NCBI GenBank assembly: GCA_019913005.1
Contig: JAIOHL010000207.1
Location: forward strand, 1 to 64,000
DNA length: 64,000 bases
Source: Anaerolineae bacterium
GTDB taxonomy: Bacteria > Chloroflexota > Anaerolineae > Aggregatilineales > J027
Direction of reading: 5' to 3'
Each line of letters opens with the position of its first letter. Within the stretch, counting starts at the first letter, position 1. The notes beneath the pieces are model-generated. The model was not told where the DNA came from and did no database searches. It was given only the letters and a program-made list of their open reading frames with translations. Positions 6,494 through 29,198 of this stretch are shown in pieces. Both the position numbers and the translations under genes were made by a program.

Positions 6494-8428
6494 CTATTGT
6501 TCGATTTCTTCATGAGGCGAACGGAGCACCTTCGCAACATCCACCCCCAACATGATAGATGAGCCGACGACCTTGTTGGGAGGTTCACTGACGCCGGGGG
6601 TATAGACCCACGTTCCAGTTAATTCGTCTAGGTGAATCGTGACCCGCTGTGGCGTATCCTGATAATTCACCAAATGTAACTGGTGCGTCCCGTCTTTTTC
6701 TTCCCATAGGGTCAGCAAGATGGGGCCATCGCTTTCCACACGGGGATAGAAATCCCGCCCAATCGCATCCAATATAGCCGATTGCAGGGCTGGCGGTGGC
6801 AGGATATATAAAGGCGAATGATTCATCGCCTCCTGTAATTTTAGTCGGACTGCCAACCAGCGCGAAAGCCGATGTCGATGATAAGCCCGCCAACAGATCA
6901 TCGCGCCCTGATTGACCCGAATTCGTAATTGGCGGATGTGTGGAATGCGATGACGCAGGGGTCGCCAACCTTCCCAAATTGTTTTAGTGGCGGCTGGACG
7001 GGATTGACCCAACGCAATCACCCGCCCACCCTGTTCAACAAATTGGGCTAGATGCTGGTCGAGGCCATCTATCTGACCGGGGGGAACAATCAAAATCTTG
7101 ACACCTGACCAGTCATCATCGTCACTGACGATACGCAGGGGATAACCATTTTGAATAAGTGCCTCGCACGCGGCAAAAAAGATAGGCGCGATTCTTATCC
7201 AATCCCAACGCACCGCCTCATAGGGATGATAGATGGCAAGTGGGCTAATCGGCACACGCTCACTTAACCACACATGATGTTCTGTGAGCCAATGGTTCAT
7301 CGCGCCAATCACACGGCGCTGGGGTTCATAGCGGCTGTGCAGGAGCGAGGTGAATTCATTGCGATGCAGATAACCCGTGCCGTTGACCACCATTGGTGCA
7401 TTGAGGGCGGCAGATTCAGCCATTGCGCGGCTTAACTGCTTGGCGGTTGCCATGCGCTCAACTCCCACTCCATCACGTTGTGGCAGGGTGGCAACGGGTT
7501 TGTTACCCACACGCGACTGCACCGCACCAATCGTAATGGCGTTTGCCACTACTGAATTATCTTCTTGGAGGCGCGGCAGGGCAAAACTCGGCACGATCAT
7601 GACATCCTGCACGGAGGCCATGTTTTCAATATCCACACCCATCGCCACATAGCTGTTGCTGGCAATCACATCATAGTTGTTGGCAGTGATAACGACGGAA
7701 GGGTTGAGATCACGGGCAGTTTGCGACCAATCGCGGACAGCGGCCGCCGCAATATCGGCACGCCAGCGCAAATATTGGCGGGTAGCCGCATCGCGGGTAT
7801 CCAAGACCAATGGAATTTCCGCACCGTTAAACGCATTGGAATAGGCACGACGGCTGTGTTCGTCATACGCCCCAATCGGGCCAAGCGGCATTTCGGCAAC
7901 ATCTATACCCGTGCCGCCAACCCATGCGTTATCAAAAAAGATGCCGTCTACTCCCGCTTCGATAATTTTCCGTACCCGCTCACGCACTTCGGCTAACCAA
8001 GTGGCATTGGAGAGAGAGGTATAGTAACGGCCACGAAAATAGGGAATTTTGCGCCCATAAGGATCAAGCGCATACCAATCTTTTTCTATATAACTGCCTT
8101 GATAAACACAATTGGACGATTGGACATAACCAAAGATTTTCACCCCGGCTTTGTGATAATGGATCACAGCCGAGCGAAACGATTCCCAGTCTTGTTCTTC
8201 AATCTCTGGCGGAAAGCCCCAATTGAAGGCAAGAAAAGCCCAATTGAACCCCATTTGCGCGACCATCTCGGCCCCCTCAATCGAGTGAGCGAGATCGTAG
8301 ATTTTGTCGTCTACAGGTGCGTTCATAAATTTGATACGCAACATGCGCCGCGTACCCGGCCCGCCCCACAAATAAATGGGCCTAAATTGACCTAGATTGA
8401 GTGAGTCCATCCCAGAACGTTTTGGCAT
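6494..8428 (-). CDS. Glycosidase-like TIM-barrel protein with amidotransferase-like C domain
   Basis: The protein is 644 residues and has no signal peptide. Residues ~20-380 look like a (beta/alpha)8 barrel of the glycoside hydrolase type: FNWAFLAFNWGFPPE, KIFGYVQSSNCVYQ, a strand ending GVDGIFFDNAW with acidic residues, and VVITANNYDV. After residue ~430 there is a Rossmann-like segment, VKILIVPPGQ...FVEQGGRVIALG. This is the arrangement of a GH42-type trimerisation (glutamine amidotransferase-like) domain. A beta-rich tail follows. The likely role is glycoside hydrolysis inside the cell, but I cannot name the family or substrate. A second ATG six codons downstream is an alternative start; neither has a strong ribosome binding site. 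It is first in a minus-strand operon with the 794-aa protein (12-base gap) and purB. Confidence 0.65.
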   Translation of the reverse strand: MPKRSGMDSLNLGQFRPIYLWGGPGTRRMLRIKFMNAPVDDKIYDLAHSIEGAEMVAQMGFNWAFLAFNWGFPPEIEEQDWESFRSAVIHYHKAGVKIFGYVQSSNCVYQGSYIEKDWYALDPYGRKIPYFRGRYYTSLSNATWLAEVRERVRKIIEAGVDGIFFDNAWVGGTGIDVAEMPLGPIGAYDEHSRRAYSNAFNGAEIPLVLDTRDAATRQYLRWRADIAAAAVRDWSQTARDLNPSVVITANNYDVIASNSYVAMGVDIENMASVQDVMIVPSFALPRLQEDNSVVANAITIGAVQSRVGNKPVATLPQRDGVGVERMATAKQLSRAMAESAALNAPMVVNGTGYLHRNEFTSLLHSRYEPQRRVIGAMNHWLTEHHVWLSERVPISPLAIYHPYEAVRWDWIRIAPIFFAACEALIQNGYPLRIVSDDDDWSGVKILIVPPGQIDGLDQHLAQFVEQGGRVIALGQSRPAATKTIWEGWRPLRHRIPHIRQLRIRVNQGAMICWRAYHRHRLSRWLAVRLKLQEAMNHSPLYILPPPALQSAILDAIGRDFYPRVESDGPILLTLWEEKDGTHQLHLVNYQDTPQRVTIHLDELTGTWVYTPGVSEPPNKVVGSSIMLGVDVAKVLRSPHEEIEQ

Positions 8429-18842: not shown

Positions 18843-21707
18843 ATGCCAGATTCAATGGACACGTCGGCAAAATTTTATGAATTGACACCCCCCGAAAAAA
18901 CGTTCAAAAAATGGATTAATGCTTGGGGTACTTATATCGGCATTGTACTCATTGGGACACTGCTCATCGCGGCTCTGGGTTTAAAAAGCACCACCTATCT
19001 GGGTAATCCGATTTTTTTTGCGCTGACGATTGGTGGCCTGAGTGGGATGTTCTATGCCATCCAAACCCTGCGGGATGGGGTGCGGGAAAACGCCTATTTT
19101 GCAGACATCCTTATCGGAACAACGCTTTTGGCAGCGGTCATTATGGCGCTCTTTTTGCGTGTAACCGATGACACCCTGACCAAAACACTTCTGGGAATCG
19201 GGGTATTGGTCGGTTTAGGAAGCGCCGTCTTAACATTGATTTTAGCAGTACCCATTTATGATTACCGTATTGGAAGGGGATTTACTTCACACGAACCCAT
19301 TCCCTATAGACGTGAAAGCCAAGCCGCCCTAACCCCTGCCCAAAAACGGCTCGGTCAATGGGCGGGGTTGATTGCGGCCATTGGAGCAGTTGCTAGCAGC
19401 TTGATTATCGCCCTGCAATTGGGTTCATCCGAGGCATGGAGTCGGATTGGCAACCCCCTTTTCGTGGCAGGCAGTGCCATAGCGTTGGTGCTGGTCATGG
19501 CATCGGGGTTATTTGTGCGATGGCGACCTCAATGGCGTTTGATGATGGGGGATACGCTGGTAACGGTTCTTGTGACCAGCACGGCAACCCTGTTTATTGC
19601 GGCAGCCTTCGATTGGACAGGGGATTCTGCTAACACGGTGATGTGGCTCATGTTGGCGCTCACCGTCATCACGATTGGGGTGCGTCTCGCCGCCGAGCAG
19701 TCGGTCTATTCAGGGCTATATATTCCATTCTGGCTATTCAGAGAGCTAGAGGCGTTCGCGGAGGTCATCATTGAAGGGCCACTTTCGGCGGAAAAACAGC
19801 GGGATAGTGACGGCATCACTGAGGTTGTCACCCCACAAGCCGTTGCTATGAACGTTGACCGCTATCTTTCGCGTGTACATTCGCCGCGTAAATTGAGCGC
19901 CATGATTTCGCTACTCTTCGTGACCTTTCTGAGGCCACTGTGGGGTCTGCACCTCTCTATGTCGCGTATGGGCTATTTGGAACGGCGGCAGTTCATCGAA
20001 TACGTCTTTCGGCAAGGACGTGGCATTTATCGTCCAATGATACAGATTAAACAACTCATTGTATTGGGCTATTATTCCGACCCACGCACCTATCCCCAAG
20101 TCGGCTTTGAGCCATTTCCAAAGCGACCTCGTTACCAAAACCTAGTCACCGCCGACATTCCAATCACCCCCGCAACCCCACCCGAAAACGCCTTAAATGT
20201 CGTGCGAGAGCGAGAACACCACTGCAAAATATGCGTGATTGGAAGCGGGGCGGGTGGCGCGGTTGCCGCAGCACGTTTGGCACAGGCATTCCCCGGTGAA
20301 GTAACCATTTTGGAAGCGGGTTCTTATCTCAGGGCATCAGAGTTTACGCAATCTGAACCAGACATGATCGCGGCCCTGTACAAAGACGGCGGAATGCAAA
20401 TCAGCATGGAACTGAACATGCCCGTTTTGCAGGGAGCGTGTGTAGGAGGCAGCACGGTTCATAACAACGGCATTTGTTTCGACCTGCCAGACAAGGTGGT
20501 AGCAAATTGGAAATTGATGGGAGCAAGTCTTGATAACAGCAAGTTGAAGGAGTCTGCCCAGCGTGTTCGTCAGCGCCTCAACATCAAACCTATTCCGGAG
20601 ACCGTAATTGGGCCGGGGTCATTCAAATTTGCTGAGGGTGCAAATCTCTTGAAGCAAAATGGCCTAGATCAAGGTCGCATCAAGAGTGGACCAGCATGGT
20701 TTGAACTGAATTTTGATGGTTGTGTGGGTTGTGGATACTGCAATATCGGCTGTCGTTATGGAAAAAAACTATCCATGTTGGAGACCTATGTCCCCGATGC
20801 CGAAAAATACGGCGCCACGGTGATTGCCAATTGCAAGGCCCTGCGTTTCGACGTGGAAGATGGTCGAGCGGTGGGCTTGCGGTGTACATTGGATGACCAG
20901 CATGATTTTTATGTCCATGCCGATTATTTTGTGGTGGCGGGTGGCACGATTGCTTCATCTCTTCTGTTTCTCAACAGTGGACTAAAAGGCCCGGTTGGAA
21001 AAGGGCTATCCTTTAACATCGGCGCGGCGGTCAGTGCGGAATTCCCGCAACCCGTGCGTGGTTATGATGGGGTACAGATGTGTGGCTATCTTGAGGCCGA
21101 CGGGTATATGTTGGAAACGCTGTTTAATCCCCCTGCTCTATTTGCGATGGCAATGCCGGGGTGGTTTATGGAACACTTTCATAACATGCAGCGCTATGCC
21201 TATCTTGCCAACGGTGGCATCATGGTGCCGAGCGCCGCCATTGGAGAAGTCCGAACACCTCTGCCCGTTGTGGGTCGTTATCTCCCCGGATTCAGTTACT
21301 CACTGGAAAAGGATTCAACGACCTATCAGGCCTTGAAAGATGGTATCCGGCTGATGTCGGAGGTCTATTTGGCGGCAGGGGCGATTCGGGTGATGCCTTC
21401 GACCTATGTTGATTTGGAATTTCGGGCGGGAGATGACAGCGAAAAGATTGCCCAAATGATAGAGGAAAAGATTCATCGGGCGGAAGACCTCTATTTTGCG
21501 TCAGCGCACCCACAAGGCGGCAATGCTATCAATCGTGACCCCGATAAGGGCGTAATTAACGAAAGTCTGCGCTCCCATACTCTACAAAATGTGTGGGTCA
21601 GTGATGCCAGCGTTTTCCCAACATCGGTACAGGTCAACCCACAACTGTCTATTATGACGGTGGCAGACTACGCAGCGGGCATGATGCTTGCGGAAATCAA
21701 CAGTTGA
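18843..21707 (+). CDS. GMC-family FAD oxidoreductase fused to an N-terminal membrane domain
   Basis: This 954-residue protein starts at an ATG with GGAGGT three bases upstream. Residues ~25-275 contain about eight hydrophobic segments (e.g. YIGIVLIGTLLIAALGL, LMLALTVITIGVRLAAEQ). A linker follows, then a GMC oxidoreductase from ~455: FAD motif CVIGSGAGGAVAAARLA (~462-478), the substrate-loop segment QGACVGGSTVHNNGICF, and a cysteine-rich insert CVGCGYCNIGCRYGKK (~627-642) as in long-chain alcohol and sterol-type GMC enzymes. The C terminus has SAHPQGGNAIN with the catalytic His and VNPQLSIMTVADYAAGMM. The membrane domain suggests a hydrophobic substrate such as a fatty alcohol, sterol or hopanoid. 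It forms an operon with the OYE-type enzyme. The family is secure; the substrate is inferred. Confidence 0.88.
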   Translation: MPDSMDTSAKFYELTPPEKTFKKWINAWGTYIGIVLIGTLLIAALGLKSTTYLGNPIFFALTIGGLSGMFYAIQTLRDGVRENAYFADILIGTTLLAAVIMALFLRVTDDTLTKTLLGIGVLVGLGSAVLTLILAVPIYDYRIGRGFTSHEPIPYRRESQAALTPAQKRLGQWAGLIAAIGAVASSLIIALQLGSSEAWSRIGNPLFVAGSAIALVLVMASGLFVRWRPQWRLMMGDTLVTVLVTSTATLFIAAAFDWTGDSANTVMWLMLALTVITIGVRLAAEQSVYSGLYIPFWLFRELEAFAEVIIEGPLSAEKQRDSDGITEVVTPQAVAMNVDRYLSRVHSPRKLSAMISLLFVTFLRPLWGLHLSMSRMGYLERRQFIEYVFRQGRGIYRPMIQIKQLIVLGYYSDPRTYPQVGFEPFPKRPRYQNLVTADIPITPATPPENALNVVREREHHCKICVIGSGAGGAVAAARLAQAFPGEVTILEAGSYLRASEFTQSEPDMIAALYKDGGMQISMELNMPVLQGACVGGSTVHNNGICFDLPDKVVANWKLMGASLDNSKLKESAQRVRQRLNIKPIPETVIGPGSFKFAEGANLLKQNGLDQGRIKSGPAWFELNFDGCVGCGYCNIGCRYGKKLSMLETYVPDAEKYGATVIANCKALRFDVEDGRAVGLRCTLDDQHDFYVHADYFVVAGGTIASSLLFLNSGLKGPVGKGLSFNIGAAVSAEFPQPVRGYDGVQMCGYLEADGYMLETLFNPPALFAMAMPGWFMEHFHNMQRYAYLANGGIMVPSAAIGEVRTPLPVVGRYLPGFSYSLEKDSTTYQALKDGIRLMSEVYLAAGAIRVMPSTYVDLEFRAGDDSEKIAQMIEEKIHRAEDLYFASAHPQGGNAINRDPDKGVINESLRSHTLQNVWVSDASVFPTSVQVNPQLSIMTVADYAAGMMLAEINS

Positions 21708-21840: not shown

Positions 21841-22983
21841 CTATCGGGTGCTTCTTCGAATGACAAGCTCCGGGTTGAAAATGATTTGTCGGTTGGGAAG
21901 TGGTTCTTGATTGATGTCCCCCAACAAGATTTCGAATAAGGCCTCGGCAAGCTCATCAATGGGCTGATGAACTGAGGTAATCCCAAGAAACTGGGCAGTG
22001 GGGTCATCATCGTAACCTGTTAGGGCCACGTCGTCGGGTATCCGTAAATTCACACTATCCAGATAGGATTTTGCACCGAACGCCATCAGATCATTGGCAC
22101 AGACGAGCGCCGTTGGTGGATATTTGGAATTCATAATTTGTTGTGCGGCCATCGCTGCCGAATCTAGGATATTATGTGTATACGCTATCCAGTCATTTTC
22201 GATACGGACACCTGCATCACGCATGGCCTCTCGATAACTGGCCTCGCGTGCATCACCAAAAGGCCAACCCGACGGCCAACCCAAGAGGCCGATACGTTCA
22301 TGTCCCTGTTCTAATAAATGATCCATCACTAATCGGATGCCTTTTTTGCCGTCTACATCTACATAGGCAAAATCAGCATTTTCTAGATACATCCCGCCGA
22401 AGGCTGCAAAGGGTGCTCTCATAGCAGTCAGGCGGGCAATGCGTGGGTCGTTATAGGTAACATCCGAGATGATAAATCCGTCCACCCGACTGGTCGAAAT
22501 TAACGACTCATAGACTCGATCCGCATTCTTCTGCGGCTGCACAAATGTCAAGAGATGAAAGCTGCGTTCCTCCGCTGCCATCGTGACGCGGTAAATAAAC
22601 CGATCCAGCAAATTATTCATACGGCTGGGGTCGTCCGCGACGTGCCATGAATAGCCCACTACCCCGGTACGGTTCATGCGCAAATTTCGCGCCGAAATAT
22701 TGAGATGGTACCCCAGCATTTGGGCCGCTTCCAAGACTTTTTGTCGCGTGGCAGGCTTAATCAATTCGCTATTGTTGAGGGCATAAGACACTGTACCTTT
22801 GGCGACGCCTGCCAAATCAGCAATATCTATCTGCGTGATTTTCAAAGTGTAATTGAGGTTATCAGCGGCCTCTTGCACACACCGGCGTGTTACCTCGTCT
22901 ACGGTGTCGTGTTGATTTAGGGCCTGAAACGCAGTCAGCATTGGCACGCCTGCTGAATCTGCTACCTCTTTTAATGTCGCCAT
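21841..22983 (-). CDS. LacI-family repressor with two tandem HTH domains
   Basis: The protein has 380 residues, about 45-50 more than a typical LacI regulator, and the extra length is a second DNA-binding domain. Residues 3-49 are one LacI HTH (TLKEVADSAGVPMLTAFQAL...), and 53-103 a second (IADLAGVAKGTVSYALNN...LGYHLNISARNLR). The periplasmic-binding-protein-like sensor follows (TGVVGYSWHV, VDGFIISDV, GHERIGLLGWPSG, ALVCANDLMAFGA, LTGYDDDP). The second HTH keeps the consensus 'TVSYALN'; the first has the divergent 'TAFQALN'. AGGAGA lies six bases before the ATG. It is divergent from the sugar ABC operon and almost certainly controls it through the palindrome at 23073-23092, in response to a sugar. 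Confidence 0.93.
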   Translation of the reverse strand: MATLKEVADSAGVPMLTAFQALNQHDTVDEVTRRCVQEAADNLNYTLKITQIDIADLAGVAKGTVSYALNNSELIKPATRQKVLEAAQMLGYHLNISARNLRMNRTGVVGYSWHVADDPSRMNNLLDRFIYRVTMAAEERSFHLLTFVQPQKNADRVYESLISTSRVDGFIISDVTYNDPRIARLTAMRAPFAAFGGMYLENADFAYVDVDGKKGIRLVMDHLLEQGHERIGLLGWPSGWPFGDAREASYREAMRDAGVRIENDWIAYTHNILDSAAMAAQQIMNSKYPPTALVCANDLMAFGAKSYLDSVNLRIPDDVALTGYDDDPTAQFLGITSVHQPIDELAEALFEILLGDINQEPLPNRQIIFNPELVIRRSTR

Positions 22984-23042
22984 AGAAATTCTCCTGCCGT
23001 TAGTGGGTGCCTAATATACCAAAAATCTTCGGGGCGAGTTGC

Positions 23043-23071
23043 TTGACAAACCTATAGTCTGAGTATACACT
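23043..23071 (+). promoter_or_regulatory. Promoter of the sugar-utilisation operon
   Basis: TTGACA (23043-23048), a perfect -35 box, and TACACT (23066-23071) are separated by 17 bases. The predicted start of transcription, near 23078, falls inside the operator palindrome that begins two bases after the -10 box. Confidence 0.7.
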
Positions 23072-23072
23072 A

Positions 23073-23092
23073 TTTTTGAGACGTCTCAAAAA
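23073..23092. promoter_or_regulatory. Operator: perfect 20-bp palindrome for the LacI-type repressor
   Basis: TTTTTGAGAC followed directly by GTCTCAAAAA is a perfect palindrome with a central CG, the usual design of LacI-family operators. It covers the predicted transcription start of the sugar operon, so binding would block initiation. It lies 90 bases from the divergent repressor gene and could also control that gene. Confidence 0.8.
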
Positions 23093-23182
23093 AAGATCGT
23101 GTGCCGATAATTTCCGTGAAAAACTATCGGCATCAGTCTAACAACCTAACACTATCATAATCAGTTTAGGAGAAATAAGATT

Positions 23183-24586
23183 ATGAAATTGAAGTTTTCA
23201 CTACTCTTGGTCGTAGTTGTGGCGCTCGCCAGCCTCCATATAGCCCCTACTCGTGGGCAAGATGGCCCGTCAGTCCCTGCCGTTCTCACCATGCCAGACC
23301 AAATCGCGGAAGGCCGCGACGTTCAGATCGCCGTGAGCAACAAACCCCCGGCTGACCTTGCGGAAGAACTAGCCGTCTATGAAGCACAGGTCGCCAAATT
23401 CCAAGCGATGTATCCCAATGTGACTATCGAAGGCTTGGAACTAGAATATGATCCGATTGCCTATCTTGCTTTAGTGGCAGGCGGTCAACTCCCTACGCTC
23501 TTTAAGACTTACTTCACCGAACCCGAAAAATTCATTGGTCAAAATGCGGTAGCAGATTTAACCACCTATTACGAAGCAACTGGTCTCAATAGCGTATTTA
23601 ATCCTAATGTCCTAGCGATTGCCAGTCAAGATGGCAAAGTCTATGGAATTCCCGATTTTGCCTATTCACTGGGCTTGGCCTATAACATCCAGATGCTGGC
23701 CGATGCGGGTTTTGACGCTCCCCCTGCGACATGGGAAGAACTGGCCGAAATGGCAGTTGCTTTGACCGATCATGACAATGGCGTGGCGGGTTTTGCCTTT
23801 ATCAATGACGGCTCCGGCGCGACGGGCTGGCATTATACCAATATCGCCTACGGCTTTGGTGCGACCCCCGAAGGCATCATCAAGCCCGAAGGTGATGGCG
23901 AGTATAGTGCTCAATTTGGCGAAGGCTCAACGGTTGATGCGCTCAATTTCGTTCATGACCTGCGCTGGGAATATGATGTGCTGCCCGGCGCAACCCTTGA
24001 TTGGGGCACGATCACTGAAGCATTGGCTTCTGAGCGCGTGGCAATGGTGATTTATGCAGGCGATCAATTCGGCTTCATGAACAACCAATTCCCAGATGCC
24101 GATCTGAGCAAGTTCGGTTATGCTGCGATGCCTGCCGGCCCGAATGGTCGCGTGGCGCTGACGGGTGGTAATTTGTGGATGGTCAATGGCAGTGCTTCCG
24201 TCGATGAACAAGAAGCTGCTTTCTACTTCCAAGCATGGCGTCAATTCGACCCTGTTGAATATGAAACCTCGACGATCACCCTTTCAGAACAAGGCCGCGC
24301 CATTGGTCAGCCCGTTCTGCCGCTGTACGTGGGTGACTATCAGGCCGCGCGTGAGACGTTTGAAGCACAATACAATGTGCTGCCCGTTGAGAACTATACC
24401 GCGTTCAATGACGCAGTTAAGGCTGGCGAAGTGACCTTGCAAGCCGAACCGCCCGCCGCAGCGCAGGATTACTACGCGGAGTTGGGTGTGCTGGTCAGCG
24501 AGATCTTGAGCGATGAAAACAGCGACCCTGAAAGCCGCCTCGCTGAGGTTGCCGAAGAATTCCAAGCCTTCGTGCTTGATCGCTAA
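23183..24586 (+). CDS. Sugar ABC transporter substrate-binding protein
   Basis: The 467-residue extracytoplasmic binding protein is of the SBP_bac_1 type used for oligosaccharides. The signal peptide (MKLKFSLLLVVVVALASLHI, cleavage near TRGQ) lacks a lipobox Cys. The mature part has VAKFQAMYPNVTIEGLELEYD near 75, FKTYFTEPEKFIGQNAVADLTTYY, VYGIPDFAYSLGLAYNIQML near 155, ATWEELAEMAVALT near 180 and GNLWMVNGSA near 330. The ATG has AGGAGA eight bases before it. It is the first gene of the operon and is followed by a strong terminator, as expected for a binding protein needed in excess over the permeases. The ligand is probably an alpha-glucan or similar oligosaccharide given the glycosidases downstream. 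Confidence 0.92.
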   Translation: MKLKFSLLLVVVVALASLHIAPTRGQDGPSVPAVLTMPDQIAEGRDVQIAVSNKPPADLAEELAVYEAQVAKFQAMYPNVTIEGLELEYDPIAYLALVAGGQLPTLFKTYFTEPEKFIGQNAVADLTTYYEATGLNSVFNPNVLAIASQDGKVYGIPDFAYSLGLAYNIQMLADAGFDAPPATWEELAEMAVALTDHDNGVAGFAFINDGSGATGWHYTNIAYGFGATPEGIIKPEGDGEYSAQFGEGSTVDALNFVHDLRWEYDVLPGATLDWGTITEALASERVAMVIYAGDQFGFMNNQFPDADLSKFGYAAMPAGPNGRVALTGGNLWMVNGSASVDEQEAAFYFQAWRQFDPVEYETSTITLSEQGRAIGQPVLPLYVGDYQAARETFEAQYNVLPVENYTAFNDAVKAGEVTLQAEPPAAAQDYYAELGVLVSEILSDENSDPESRLAEVAEEFQAFVLDR

Positions 24587-24646: not shown

Positions 24647-25588
24647 ATGAAACTTACTTACGCTCTGCAAACTACGCGCACAATTACACGACCTTTTTCG
24701 GTGCTGCCCTATCGTCTCACTCGACATCTCAATGGATACTTGTTCCTACTACCTGCCATTATCGTATTTGCGCTGGTGGCGTGGTATCCCATTGTGCGTG
24801 CCTTCCAGATGAGTTTTCAAGAAGTCAGCCTGATCGGTGAATCTAAGAATGTCGGGTTTGAAAACTATGAACTCATGAAAAAAGACCCTGCACGCAAAAT
24901 TATTTTTGAAAATAGCATCGAATTCGCCTCGTGGAGTATTTTGTTGGGGTATGCGGTGCCAGTCGTTGTAGCGATTCTGGTGCGAGAAATGCGCTTTGGC
25001 AAAGGGTTCTTTCGCATTGTTTATTTCTTGCCCAGCGTTGTGCCCGTTTCCATTGCGGTAATTGTGTGGCGCTTTATTTATGACCCTGATGCAGGCGTAC
25101 TGAATGAATTTTTGGAGCTATTTGGCATCAAAGGTCAACTGTGGTTGTACGACCCTAAATTGGCAAAGCCATCTATCGTGGCGGTCATGACATGGGGAAC
25201 GTTCGGTACGACCACCCTGATTTATTTGTCTAGTCTGCTTGATATTCCTACTGAATTGTATGAGGCAGCAGAATTGGATGGGGCATCGCCGTTGATGCGG
25301 ATTCGACATATCACCCTACCCCATCTTTTCCCCATCATGTCGCTGCTATTCGTACTGCAAATTTTGGCAGTCGTTCAGGTATTCACCGAACCCTTCTTGT
25401 TTACCAAAGGAGGGCCGGGCCGACGTGAGACATTAACGCCAGTGCTCCACATTTATAACCGTGCCTTTGGCCGCGCCGACATGGGGTATGCAGCGGCATG
25501 GAGCGTGGTGCTAGTCATTGTCTTGGTAGCCTTCTCCGCCTTCTATCAAATCGTCAATCGCCGTATCGCCGCTCGGCAAGAAAATTAG
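24647..25588 (+). CDS. Sugar ABC transporter permease (MalF/UgpA type)
   Basis: The 313-residue membrane protein has six predicted segments, beginning with LNGYLFLLPAIIVFALVAWYPIV. The EAA loop that contacts the ATPase is present: YEAAELDGASPLMRIRHITLPHL near 205-227. AAGGAG lies eight bases before the ATG, directly after the terminator. It pairs with the next permease to form the channel. No ATPase gene is in this operon, so a shared MsmK/UgpC-type ATPase encoded elsewhere probably drives transport, as is common for this family. Confidence 0.93.
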   Translation: MKLTYALQTTRTITRPFSVLPYRLTRHLNGYLFLLPAIIVFALVAWYPIVRAFQMSFQEVSLIGESKNVGFENYELMKKDPARKIIFENSIEFASWSILLGYAVPVVVAILVREMRFGKGFFRIVYFLPSVVPVSIAVIVWRFIYDPDAGVLNEFLELFGIKGQLWLYDPKLAKPSIVAVMTWGTFGTTTLIYLSSLLDIPTELYEAAELDGASPLMRIRHITLPHLFPIMSLLFVLQILAVVQVFTEPFLFTKGGPGRRETLTPVLHIYNRAFGRADMGYAAAWSVVLVIVLVAFSAFYQIVNRRIAARQEN

Positions 25589-25600
25589 GGGAGGCCACAT

Positions 25601-26470
25601 ATGGATCGCGGATTCTTATCCAGTATCGAGTTAAAGACCCCCAAAGGCAGAATTTATTATGGGGTCACAGTTGTCATCCTCACTATCTTAGCCCTGATTG
25701 TGCTATTTCCCTTCGTCTATGCGTTCACATCTGGTCTGAAAGGGAGTCTTGAGGTCTTCAACTCCGGTCTCAACCTTATCCCCCGGAAAGCCCAGTGGCA
25801 CAATTACCGGGACGCATGGGAAGACTTCAAAATGCTGAAGTTGTTCCGCAACTCGTTTATCATTGTCACGGTGAGCGTCTTGCTGCGGTTGACGGTCTCC
25901 GTCATGGCCGCCTATTCGTTGTCACAACTCAAGCCATTTGGTCGTCAACTGGTGATGCTGGCATTTCTGCTGACCTTAATGATTCCCAGCATTGCCTATC
26001 TTGTGCCCCTATTTGTGACATTGGGCAACCTACCCATTGTGCATAAAAGTATTTTGGACAGTTATTGGGGACTGTGGATACCCTATGCGGCGGATGCCTT
26101 TGGGATTTTTGTCCTCAAGAGCTTTTTTGACCGGATTCCACCAGACATTACCGACAGCGCCAAGATTGACGGAGCATCTTCATTTCAAACGCTGGTTTAC
26201 ATCGTCCTGCCCCTGTCCCGCTCCATCATCATCATTTTGGGTATTCTGTCGTTCATGAATATTTGGAAAGATTATCTTCTGCCACTGCTGGTCATAAGTG
26301 ACCCCGAACGCCAGCCCATCACCGTGCGCCTATTTTATGTCGCCAAAGATTATGGTGTGAATCTGCAAATGGCGGCTGCGTTTATGGCCCTGCTCCCGCC
26401 ACTGCTCATTGCCATTTTAATGCAGCGTTATCTTAAAGCAGGCCTGACAATGGGCAGTATCAAGGGGTAA
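25601..26470 (+). CDS. Sugar ABC transporter permease (MalG/UgpE type)
   Basis: The 289-residue partner permease has six membrane segments. The first is VVILTILALIVLFPFVYAFTSGL, and later ones include LVMLAFLLTLMIPSIAYLVPL. The EAA loop is ITDSAKIDGASSFQTLVYIVLPLSR near 188-212. The N terminus and 'NYRDAWEDFKMLKLFRNSFII' are typical of the MalG branch. GGGGAGG precedes the ATG. The gap to the previous gene is 12 bases, so both are translated from the same message in equal amounts. Confidence 0.93.
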   Translation: MDRGFLSSIELKTPKGRIYYGVTVVILTILALIVLFPFVYAFTSGLKGSLEVFNSGLNLIPRKAQWHNYRDAWEDFKMLKLFRNSFIIVTVSVLLRLTVSVMAAYSLSQLKPFGRQLVMLAFLLTLMIPSIAYLVPLFVTLGNLPIVHKSILDSYWGLWIPYAADAFGIFVLKSFFDRIPPDITDSAKIDGASSFQTLVYIVLPLSRSIIIILGILSFMNIWKDYLLPLLVISDPERQPITVRLFYVAKDYGVNLQMAAAFMALLPPLLIAILMQRYLKAGLTMGSIKG

Positions 26471-26519
26471 CTCGGTTGTGATTATTCAGCAGCGACCCAC
26501 TTTCTCGGAGAATAGCGTT

Positions 26520-29198
26520 ATGTCGGTTTTACCCGAACATTTTCATGTCCATCTCAGTCCCATCGCTAATGATGAGGTCGTCATCCAATTTGGCACAGCG
26601 CGATTTTCTGTGCTGACGGATCGTCTGATTCGACTTGAGTATCACCCAGACGGAATTTTTGAAGACCGGGCAAGCCAAGCATTTTGGTATCGAGATCAAC
26701 CTGTACCCGGATTTACATCCCGCTTCACAGCCAACGCCGTCGAAATCGAAACGGCCCATCTGCGGCTCGAATACTGCGAGGCCGGCGAATCATTCAGCAC
26801 GAATAATCTCACAATCACCCTCAAAGAAACAGGTGTGGTATGGCATCCCGGTGAGAGTCCACAAGGAAATCTGGGTGGCACTACCCGTACCCTCGATTTC
26901 ATCAATGGCTATACACCGCTGACACAGGGTTTAATGTCCCGGCAGGGCTGGTCGGTGCTTGACGATTCGACCACCTTTGTCTTTAATGACGATTTTTGGA
27001 TTGAGCCACGTGCTGCCGGGGGAACAGATTGGTATTTTTTCGGCTATGGGCACGATTACAAAACCTGCCTGCGCGATTACTGTCGTATCAGCGGGCAAAT
27101 GCCCATGATTCCACGCTGGATTTTGGGAAATTGGTGGAGTCGTTATTGGAATTACAGCCAAGCCGAGCTTGTGCAGTTGATTGAAAATTTTGAGGATTAC
27201 CAATTGCCTTTCTCGGTGTGCATCGTGGACATGGATTGGCATCTCACTGTAACCAACAATGGCAGTACTGGCTGGACAGGCTATACATGGAATCGGGAGT
27301 TATTCCCCGACCCCAACGGCCTGATTGAATTTTTCCATCGTAAGGGCCTAAAAACAGCCCTGAATCTTCATCCTGCGGAAGGCATCCATAACCACGAAGC
27401 CCAATATCCCGAAATGGCACGGCGTATGGGCATTGACCCTACCACCAAGCAACCAGTCGCTTTTGATATTGCCAACCCGGAATTTGCCAAAGCCTATTTT
27501 GAAGTTCTGCATCACCCGTATGAGAAGATGGGCATTGATTTCTGGTGGGTAGATTGGCAGCAAGGGCAAAAATGCTCGCTACCCGGTCTTGACCCACTAT
27601 GGCTAATTAATCATCTCCATTTTTATGATTTAGGTCGTGATGGTTCCCGTCGCCCGTTTATCTTTTCACGCTGGGGCAACGAAGGCCACCAACGTTATCC
27701 GATTGGCTTTTCCGGCGACACTTACCGCACATGGGACTCGCTACGTTTCCAAACCTATATGACCCCCACCGCAACCAATATCGCTTACGGTTGGTGGAGT
27801 CACGATATTGGCGGGCATACGGGCGGCGTGCAGGACAGCGAGCTATTTGTACGATGGGTGCAGTTTGGCGTCTTTAGCCCCATTATGCGCTTGCATGTCG
27901 GCAAAGGTGAATATTATGACCAGCGGCCCTGGGCTTTTGAAGATGCCGAAGTCTTAAAGGTGTTGCGCGAAGCCCTGCAATTACGCCATGCCTTTATCCC
28001 TTATCTCTATACAATGGCCCGCCGCGCCCACCAAGACAGCCTGCCCCTGACGCAACCGATGTATTATGAGTATCCCGAAAATGAGGAGGCCTATCACTGT
28101 CCACACCAATATCTGTTTGGCACAGAATTGATTGCGGCTCCGTATGTGCATCCCGCCGACCCCGATACCCAACTGAGTCGCCAAGTGGTATGGTTGCCCG
28201 AAGGCGATTGGGTTCACTTCTTTAGCGGAGAACACTTTGCTGGAAACCGTTGGCACGCGATCTACGGTAGATTAGGTGACATCCCATTATTTGCCAAAGC
28301 AGGAGCGATTATCCCCCTTGCGAATGGACTCAATGGAGTCGGTAATCCAAATGAACTGCATATCCACATCTTCGCAGGTGCGGATAACACCTTTACCCTA
28401 TACGAGGATGATGGTGAAACCAGCAGATTCGCTGAGGGGCATTTTTGCGAGACCCGTTTTACCCAGCGTTGGCTCGGTCATAAGCTGGAATTGGTCATGG
28501 ACGCGCCCTCTGGTGATACTACACTCATTCCAGAACAGCGACTTTTCCATATTTACATTCATGGGGTCGCTGAAAGGGTCAAGGTCACTGCCAATGGGCA
28601 TTCCATTGACCAGAGCTATGATGTAGACACCGAGACCCTCCACCTAACAGCGATTCAGCTAGACCGACAAACGGGCCTACAATTGATGTTGGCAAGCTCA
28701 TCGGATTCCCTACTCTCTCGTCGCTCTCGCAAACGCGAAACTTTGCTCCATCACCTGCGGTTCTTTAAGCTGCATACGGGCGTGCGCAACCGCATAGCTG
28801 ATGAGATAGATGCTATCATGGCCGACCCTGCTCAATTAGCCCCCTATATCATCACGCTGTCGGATTTACAGAGTCGGGTGTTTTTTGAAGTGCTTTGCGA
28901 GGCCGGGTTATATACCGTCGCCGACACCGACAAACCCGTACAGGTAGTGATGTGGAACAATACCGAGAATCCCTTTATTACCTATCGCTATCGGGATGCC
29001 TATCTCCATTTTGGATTTTTACGCGCAGCCAATCACACCAACGGAGTATTACCACGTTTCACAACCTTTACTCCTCCGGTCAACGTATGGCGGCATGGAG
29101 CATATGAAGAGCAGGTACACCACACGCAATGGCACACCCAAGTTGACTATCTCAATTTGTGGACGGCATCCGAAGGCTATCGAGAATCTACCCCGTAA
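26520..29198 (+). CDS. GH31 alpha-glycosidase, cytoplasmic
   Basis: The 892-residue enzyme starts at ATG 26520 with GGAGAA seven bases before it; an upstream GTG at 26478 lacks a site. There is no signal peptide, so it should act on imported oligosaccharides. The order is an N-terminal beta domain, a TIM barrel with PRWILGNWWSRYW near 210 and DFWWVDWQQG (nucleophile Asp near 345), then QRYPIGFSGDTYRTWDSL with the acid/base Asp near 400, and YGWWSHDIGGH. C-terminal beta domains follow (TFTLYEDDGETSRF), then an extra ~150 residues. The family includes alpha-glucosidases, alpha-xylosidases and sulfoquinovosidases; 'WWVDWQQG' points to the alpha-glucosidase branch. It fits the transporter genes just upstream. 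Confidence 0.92.
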   Translation: MSVLPEHFHVHLSPIANDEVVIQFGTARFSVLTDRLIRLEYHPDGIFEDRASQAFWYRDQPVPGFTSRFTANAVEIETAHLRLEYCEAGESFSTNNLTITLKETGVVWHPGESPQGNLGGTTRTLDFINGYTPLTQGLMSRQGWSVLDDSTTFVFNDDFWIEPRAAGGTDWYFFGYGHDYKTCLRDYCRISGQMPMIPRWILGNWWSRYWNYSQAELVQLIENFEDYQLPFSVCIVDMDWHLTVTNNGSTGWTGYTWNRELFPDPNGLIEFFHRKGLKTALNLHPAEGIHNHEAQYPEMARRMGIDPTTKQPVAFDIANPEFAKAYFEVLHHPYEKMGIDFWWVDWQQGQKCSLPGLDPLWLINHLHFYDLGRDGSRRPFIFSRWGNEGHQRYPIGFSGDTYRTWDSLRFQTYMTPTATNIAYGWWSHDIGGHTGGVQDSELFVRWVQFGVFSPIMRLHVGKGEYYDQRPWAFEDAEVLKVLREALQLRHAFIPYLYTMARRAHQDSLPLTQPMYYEYPENEEAYHCPHQYLFGTELIAAPYVHPADPDTQLSRQVVWLPEGDWVHFFSGEHFAGNRWHAIYGRLGDIPLFAKAGAIIPLANGLNGVGNPNELHIHIFAGADNTFTLYEDDGETSRFAEGHFCETRFTQRWLGHKLELVMDAPSGDTTLIPEQRLFHIYIHGVAERVKVTANGHSIDQSYDVDTETLHLTAIQLDRQTGLQLMLASSSDSLLSRRSRKRETLLHHLRFFKLHTGVRNRIADEIDAIMADPAQLAPYIITLSDLQSRVFFEVLCEAGLYTVADTDKPVQVVMWNNTENPFITYRYRDAYLHFGFLRAANHTNGVLPRFTTFTPPVNVWRHGAYEEQVHHTQWHTQVDYLNLWTASEGYRESTP

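Follow-up and report, generated by a model that had tools for sequence, protein, structure and literature searches.

The window analysed here, a stretch of 64,000 nucleotides, encodes a LacI-family repressor in which two consecutive helix-turn-helix (HTH) headpieces precede a single sensor domain. We consider it somewhat probable that the second headpiece (HTH2) and its hinge read the operator, and that the first (HTH1) has been exapted as an accessory module and probably forms a protein interface. The two domains, their occurrence in one clade, the operator, the promoters, the synteny, and the divergence of HTH1 together with the constraint acting on it were all obtained by computation; the dimer, its repressing action, a sugar as inducer and the interface role of HTH1 are inferred. 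Coordinates of the features are collected in Table 1.

Table 1. Features of the repressor gene, the intergenic region and the presumed target operon (window coordinates)
Feature	Position	Strand	Basis
Single effector-binding domain, residues 106-380	21844..22668	-	Peripla_BP_3, 107.2 bits
Tandem-HTH LacI-family repressor	21841..22983	-	ORF, 380 aa; Pfam LacI x2 + Peripla_BP_3
Hinge region, residues 94-105; hinge helix predicted at about 96-104	22669..22704	-	AlphaFold2 secondary structure, low pLDDT
HTH2, residues 48-93, canonical LacI headpiece, likely operator reader	22705..22842	-	PF00356, conservation
HTH1, residues 1-47, divergent LacI headpiece lacking a hinge	22843..22983	-	PF00356, structural match, Y/F at position 21
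Shine-Dalgarno AGGAGA ahead of repressor ATG	22990..22995	-	Sequence reading
Predicted transporter-operon promoter, TTGACA-17-TACACT	23043..23071	+	Consensus match; operator immediately follows it and covers the expected start
Predicted repressor-gene promoter, TTGAGA-16-TATACT	23062..23089	-	Consensus match; -35 inside operator
Operator (predicted), 20-bp perfect palindrome TTTTTGAGAC/GTCTCAAAAA	23073..23092		Conserved upstream of repressor
Operator invariant 14-bp core TTGAGACGTCTCAA	23076-23089		16/16 upstream regions
ABC sugar-binding protein (SBP_bac_1), first gene of presumed target operon	23183..24586	+	Pfam, synteny
Two ABC permeases (24647-25588 and 25601-26470)	24647..26470	+	Pfam BPD_transp_1, synteny
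GH31 glycosidase	26478..29198	+	Pfam Glyco_hydro_31, synteny

The initial annotation proposed two complete LacI HTH units, at residues 3-49 and 53-103, joined to a single sensor domain, and suggested a Pfam scan for two PF00356 matches. In that scan the full-length protein matched PF00356 twice and Peripla_BP_3 once; the best PDB sequence match for the latter domain was 3bbl. When the headpieces were scanned singly, HTH1 (residues 1-54) scored 39.1 bits (E 6.4e-10) and HTH2 53.9 bits (E 1.5e-14), both above the gathering score of 27 bits. In an AlphaFold2 prediction of the N-terminal 105 residues, made like all our structure predictions for the monomer, two three-helix units were formed (helices 4-11, 15-22 and 30-42 in HTH1; 51-58, 62-69 and 77-89 in HTH2; pLDDT 87.8, pTM 0.76), and the hinge helix that follows HTH2 was predicted weakly (residues 96-103, or 98-104 in a further prediction). 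In structure, residues 1-48 match solved headpieces of the LacI family, that of CelR best (5ysz; Z 9.7, 0.9 Å over 48 residues), so that in the predicted model HTH1 retains the LacI-headpiece fold. Pfam, AlphaFold2 and superposition thus agree on two complete units. Foldseek and VIA-align gave matches to each headpiece separately, and no chain among the matches listed spans both HTHs.

With its PF00356 headpiece, PBP-like effector domain and hinge helix, the last a low-confidence prediction, the protein is a member of the LacI/GalR family. One HTH and one effector domain are, according to PMC4052901, the usual layout of that family, and the second HTH makes the present protein a variant of that layout without excluding it from the family. 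Only HTH2 has a hinge after it, since HTH1 joins HTH2 almost directly; hinge residues R99 and L101 are invariant in 28/28 aligned sequences. The Shine-Dalgarno sequence in front of the repressor ATG indicates that HTH1 is probably translated.

We give practically no credence to the idea that a frameshift or an assembly error has fused two genes, one of the outcomes that the initial annotation named as fatal to its proposal. The ORF is single and uninterrupted, and orthologues with the same layout occur in independent assemblies of many species, on which ground this explanation was rejected. Of the 19 places in the window's own genome that match the repressor, only this one covers HTH1 in an intact frame; at another (L011) the match begins at residue 17 and runs across stop codons. 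A search of genome contigs yielded 13 related loci, ten of which match over the full length (residues 1 to about 380), and the other three start at contig edges.

Within the window's order, the N-terminal 108 residues matched 36 places in 32 of 154 genomes: 28 complete tandems (25 genomes), four pieces cut by contig ends (three genomes) and four single-HTH matches. A full-length search added one genome (G437), bringing the genomes with a tandem-type relative to 29/154. In this last case (L112) a run of N between HTH1 and HTH2 breaks the frame; it was considered as a loss to a single HTH and rejected when the frames were read. A true single-HTH relative is present in genome G432 (L119/L144). 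By profile, tandem proteins occur in four of 400 genomes sampled from the phylum, the window's genome counted, and in 6/158 genomes of a second class, that of G078. Among plasmids, 15 records aligned with at least 80% of the N-terminus. Two of these were read (H3 and H1) and showed no tandem protein: the match starts upstream of the annotated regulator start and runs into non-coding DNA. None of 15 phage records covered 80% of the N-terminus.

In a maximum-likelihood tree of hinge and sensor, all 26 tandem rows lay beyond one branch from 35 single-HTH rows (SH-aLRT 92), in a 'quick' search in which the single-HTH branches are long. Near-copies or partial sequences (L063, L064, L077, L079 and L089) and second copies in G538, G539 and G542 were left out. 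The extra headpiece was probably gained once in this Chloroflexota subfamily. A search of open-licence works found no description of a LacI protein with two HTHs.

A second protein with two PF00356 stretches and one sensor in a single chain was met in genome G376 (L059, 137-1582, minus strand). Unlike the window repressor, it has two canonical HTHs, each reading TVS, and a longer linker. As it is only about 30% identical to the window protein, it is probably an independent fusion, judging from the sequences.

The initial annotation had also described the recognition helix of HTH1 as divergent, and both helices, VPMLTAFQALN in HTH1 and VAKGTVSYALN in HTH2, were confirmed in the translation. At LacI position 21, a Tyr or Phe stands in 24/24 non-redundant HTH1s, where Ser is found in 24/24 HTH2s and 44/44 single HTHs. 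Ala replaces Val at position 20 in 23 of the 24 HTH1s, position 16 is Pro in 18/24, and Asn25 is kept in 4/24 only; positions 16, 20, 21 and 25 are those we take to be DNA contacts in LacI. Position 17 is hydrophobic in all 24, as it also is in 18/44 single HTHs, and position 18 in 21. Aromatic residues at the place of position 21 occur in other DNA-binding HTHs, for example those of the resolvase type, so this position alone does not exclude DNA binding. HTH1 had a mean net charge of -1.18 and HTH2 of +1.00 (n=28 each), and the 44 single HTHs averaged +1.32. The single HTHs came from a control set gathered with an HMM, from which L059 (tandem) and L018 (no HTH match) were left out. The difference between HTH1 and the single HTHs gave p 1.5e-7, with near-copies included and the single rows uncorrected for relatedness, and for some HTH1s the net charge is zero or weakly positive, +2 at most.

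HTH1 is the fastest-evolving region of the repressor and HTH2 the most conserved: among 12 close-clade proteins the mean pairwise identity was 0.553 for HTH1, 0.808 for HTH2 and 0.693 for the core. This rapid change and the deviation of HTH1 from the family profile would fit a functionless remnant of a partial duplication. We regard such a remnant as very improbable, because dN/dS in HTH1 was 0.06-0.38 in every computable pair, so that the domain is not free to drift and, on these codon comparisons, is still under purifying selection. HTH1 is moreover found in every clade member with an assembled N-terminus, across two classes, has residues conserved specifically in the clade, and has a confidently predicted fold.

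The core of the predicted operator, TTGAGACGTCTCAA, was identical in all 16 upstream regions read, and the window's genome contains one copy only without mismatch. Across the order, the exact site was present in 17 of 154 genomes, all carrying a close-clade tandem regulator, and in none of the other 137. An eighteenth close-clade genome (G480) has the regulator, and there the contig stops before the upstream region. A reversed-pattern control of the core gave no match in the genomes listed. One unlinked perfect copy of TTGAGACGTCTCAA was noted in genome G465 (L174, contig C62, about 7139-7152), near an ORF that appears alpha/beta-hydrolase-like; as about three exact 14-mers are expected by chance in some 0.75 Gb (hand arithmetic), this site may be a chance occurrence.

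Two headpieces per chain had led the initial annotation to suggest four HTHs per dimer on a longer or double operator, with HTH1 as a second sequence reader. The operator regions lend this no support. Conserved columns were sought to +/-70 bp in 13 non-redundant lineages (the 16 upstream regions minus three near-copies, L063-L065), and none was found past the core except A/T richness and promoter elements; no extra conserved half-site lies beyond +/-7. Nor is the operator unusual in its length or form, since most LacI-family motifs are, according to PMC4052901, palindromes of even length (16-22 nt) with CG at the centre. TTGAGACGTCTCAA has this even, CG-centred palindromic form, and the repressor presumably binds it.

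Distant tandem relatives have short canonical palindromes, such as TGAAACGTTTCA and TTAAACGTTTAA, whose flanks, read by eye, contain G/C and are unconserved. A well-folded LacI headpiece and the A/T-rich flanks on both sides of close-clade operators could nevertheless be expected of a second reader, as could an imperfect second operator copy (GAGACGTCTC core) seen in 3/16 upstream regions. This copy lies on the transporter-promoter side, 55-56 bp away and behind the -35 of that promoter (L070, L071 and L076; hand-counted). Given the loss of the canonical positions and the average acidity of HTH1, we think a second reader unlikely. The initial annotation had left it open whether HTH1 reads a different sequence or only helps in assembly; of these the assembly role seems to fit better.

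HTH1 might instead act as a sequence-nonspecific clamp on the A/T flank or backbone beyond the half-site, where it would strengthen binding or cover the -10 element. Only a few residues link HTH1 to the N-terminus of HTH2, and in LacI-type complexes the N-terminus of the HTH is near the DNA backbone. In the close clade, the A/T content at positions +/-8 to 13 is 83% on the downstream side and 87% on the upstream side, compared with 58% at +/-31-50, and in 16/16 regions the -10 of the operon promoter ends 11-13 bp away from the centre of the operator. The A/T-rich flanks could reflect contacts by HTH1, though on the upstream side they overlap promoters and the -10 elements there partly account for the richness. 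The A/T flank is, by eye, not kept in the distant tandem clade (for example L080, L084 and L086), and HTH1 is net acidic on average. We accord a clamp a minor share of the probability. The conserved hydrophobic face suggests that HTH1 is an interface, and an accessory module remains the reading we prefer.

The arrangement of promoters around the operator is conserved. Face-to-face predicted promoters share the operator in 16/16 regions. In every one, 11-13 bp separate the operator centre from the end of the -10 of a TTGACA-type transporter promoter. For the promoter directed toward the repressor gene, the predicted -35 is the TTGAGA of the operator, and a TATAAT-like box follows after 16 or 17 bases. 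Because the operator lies within these overlapping divergent promoters, a single bound dimer could silence the operon together with the repressor gene itself. An inverted repeat, GCCGATA...TATCGGC, lies at window 23103-23131, in what is presumably the 5' leader of the transporter operon, and a matching one stands at the same leader place in L063-L066.

The repressor is syntenic with a solute-binding protein, two permeases and, mostly, a GH31 enzyme, an association that reaches relatives at 46-53% identity. It extends to G078 and G309 in another class, whose GH31 proteins are only 25-26% identical; in the f96 family the tandem repressor is kept and the neighbours are different. The gene context suggests that the small-molecule effector is a sugar. 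In the GH31 protein of the window about 200 C-terminal residues are without a Pfam match, and these are kept in L175 and L176. On the other side of the repressor gene, a GMC oxidoreductase is encoded at 18843-21707 (plus strand); its FAD domain starts near residue 460-510, and the long N-terminal stretch looks membrane-spanning and has no Pfam match.

Taken as a local sugar repressor of the LacI type, the protein would read its operator through HTH2 and the hinge. A dimer would sit on the single palindrome in the region separating the repressor gene from the ABC-transporter/GH31 operon and block both divergent promoters, and would be released when a sugar handled by the transporter and the GH31 enzyme binds the sensor. 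HTH1 has kept its fold, lost canonical DNA-contact residues and gained a hydrophobic recognition-helix face; this loss and gain make an accessory module, with a protein-protein or packing interface, its most likely role rather than that of a second reader. More tentatively, and short of what we would call probable, we propose that the additional headpiece arose by duplication or capture of a DNA-reading one and was exapted, and that the face formed by M/I/L/V17, L18 and Y/F21 binds protein and controls assembly or partner recruitment, a function that would have been retained in two or more classes of Chloroflexota.

In the textbook view, a LacI-family repressor has a single reading head in each chain. 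The window repressor resembles PurR, RbsR, CcpA and CelR in its HTH2-type headpiece, hinge and PBP-like sensor, in the even, CG-centred palindromic operator, in its place beside a local sugar operon and in its likely autoregulation. It differs from them in the additional N-terminal headpiece, which is hingeless and has a changed recognition helix. Regulators of the AraC/XylS type also carry two HTH units per chain, and in these both HTHs can contact neighbouring major grooves; in the window repressor only one HTH has the hallmarks of a reader, and the sensor fold is different.

For annotation, the repressor is a warning that the number of HTH domains does not equal the number of reading heads. 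The arrangement of a single operator and a single operon with overlapping divergent promoters recurs in many species and offers a natural test system. If the proposed role of HTH1 is true, this stable subfamily would be an example of a DNA-binding domain recruited for a new function.
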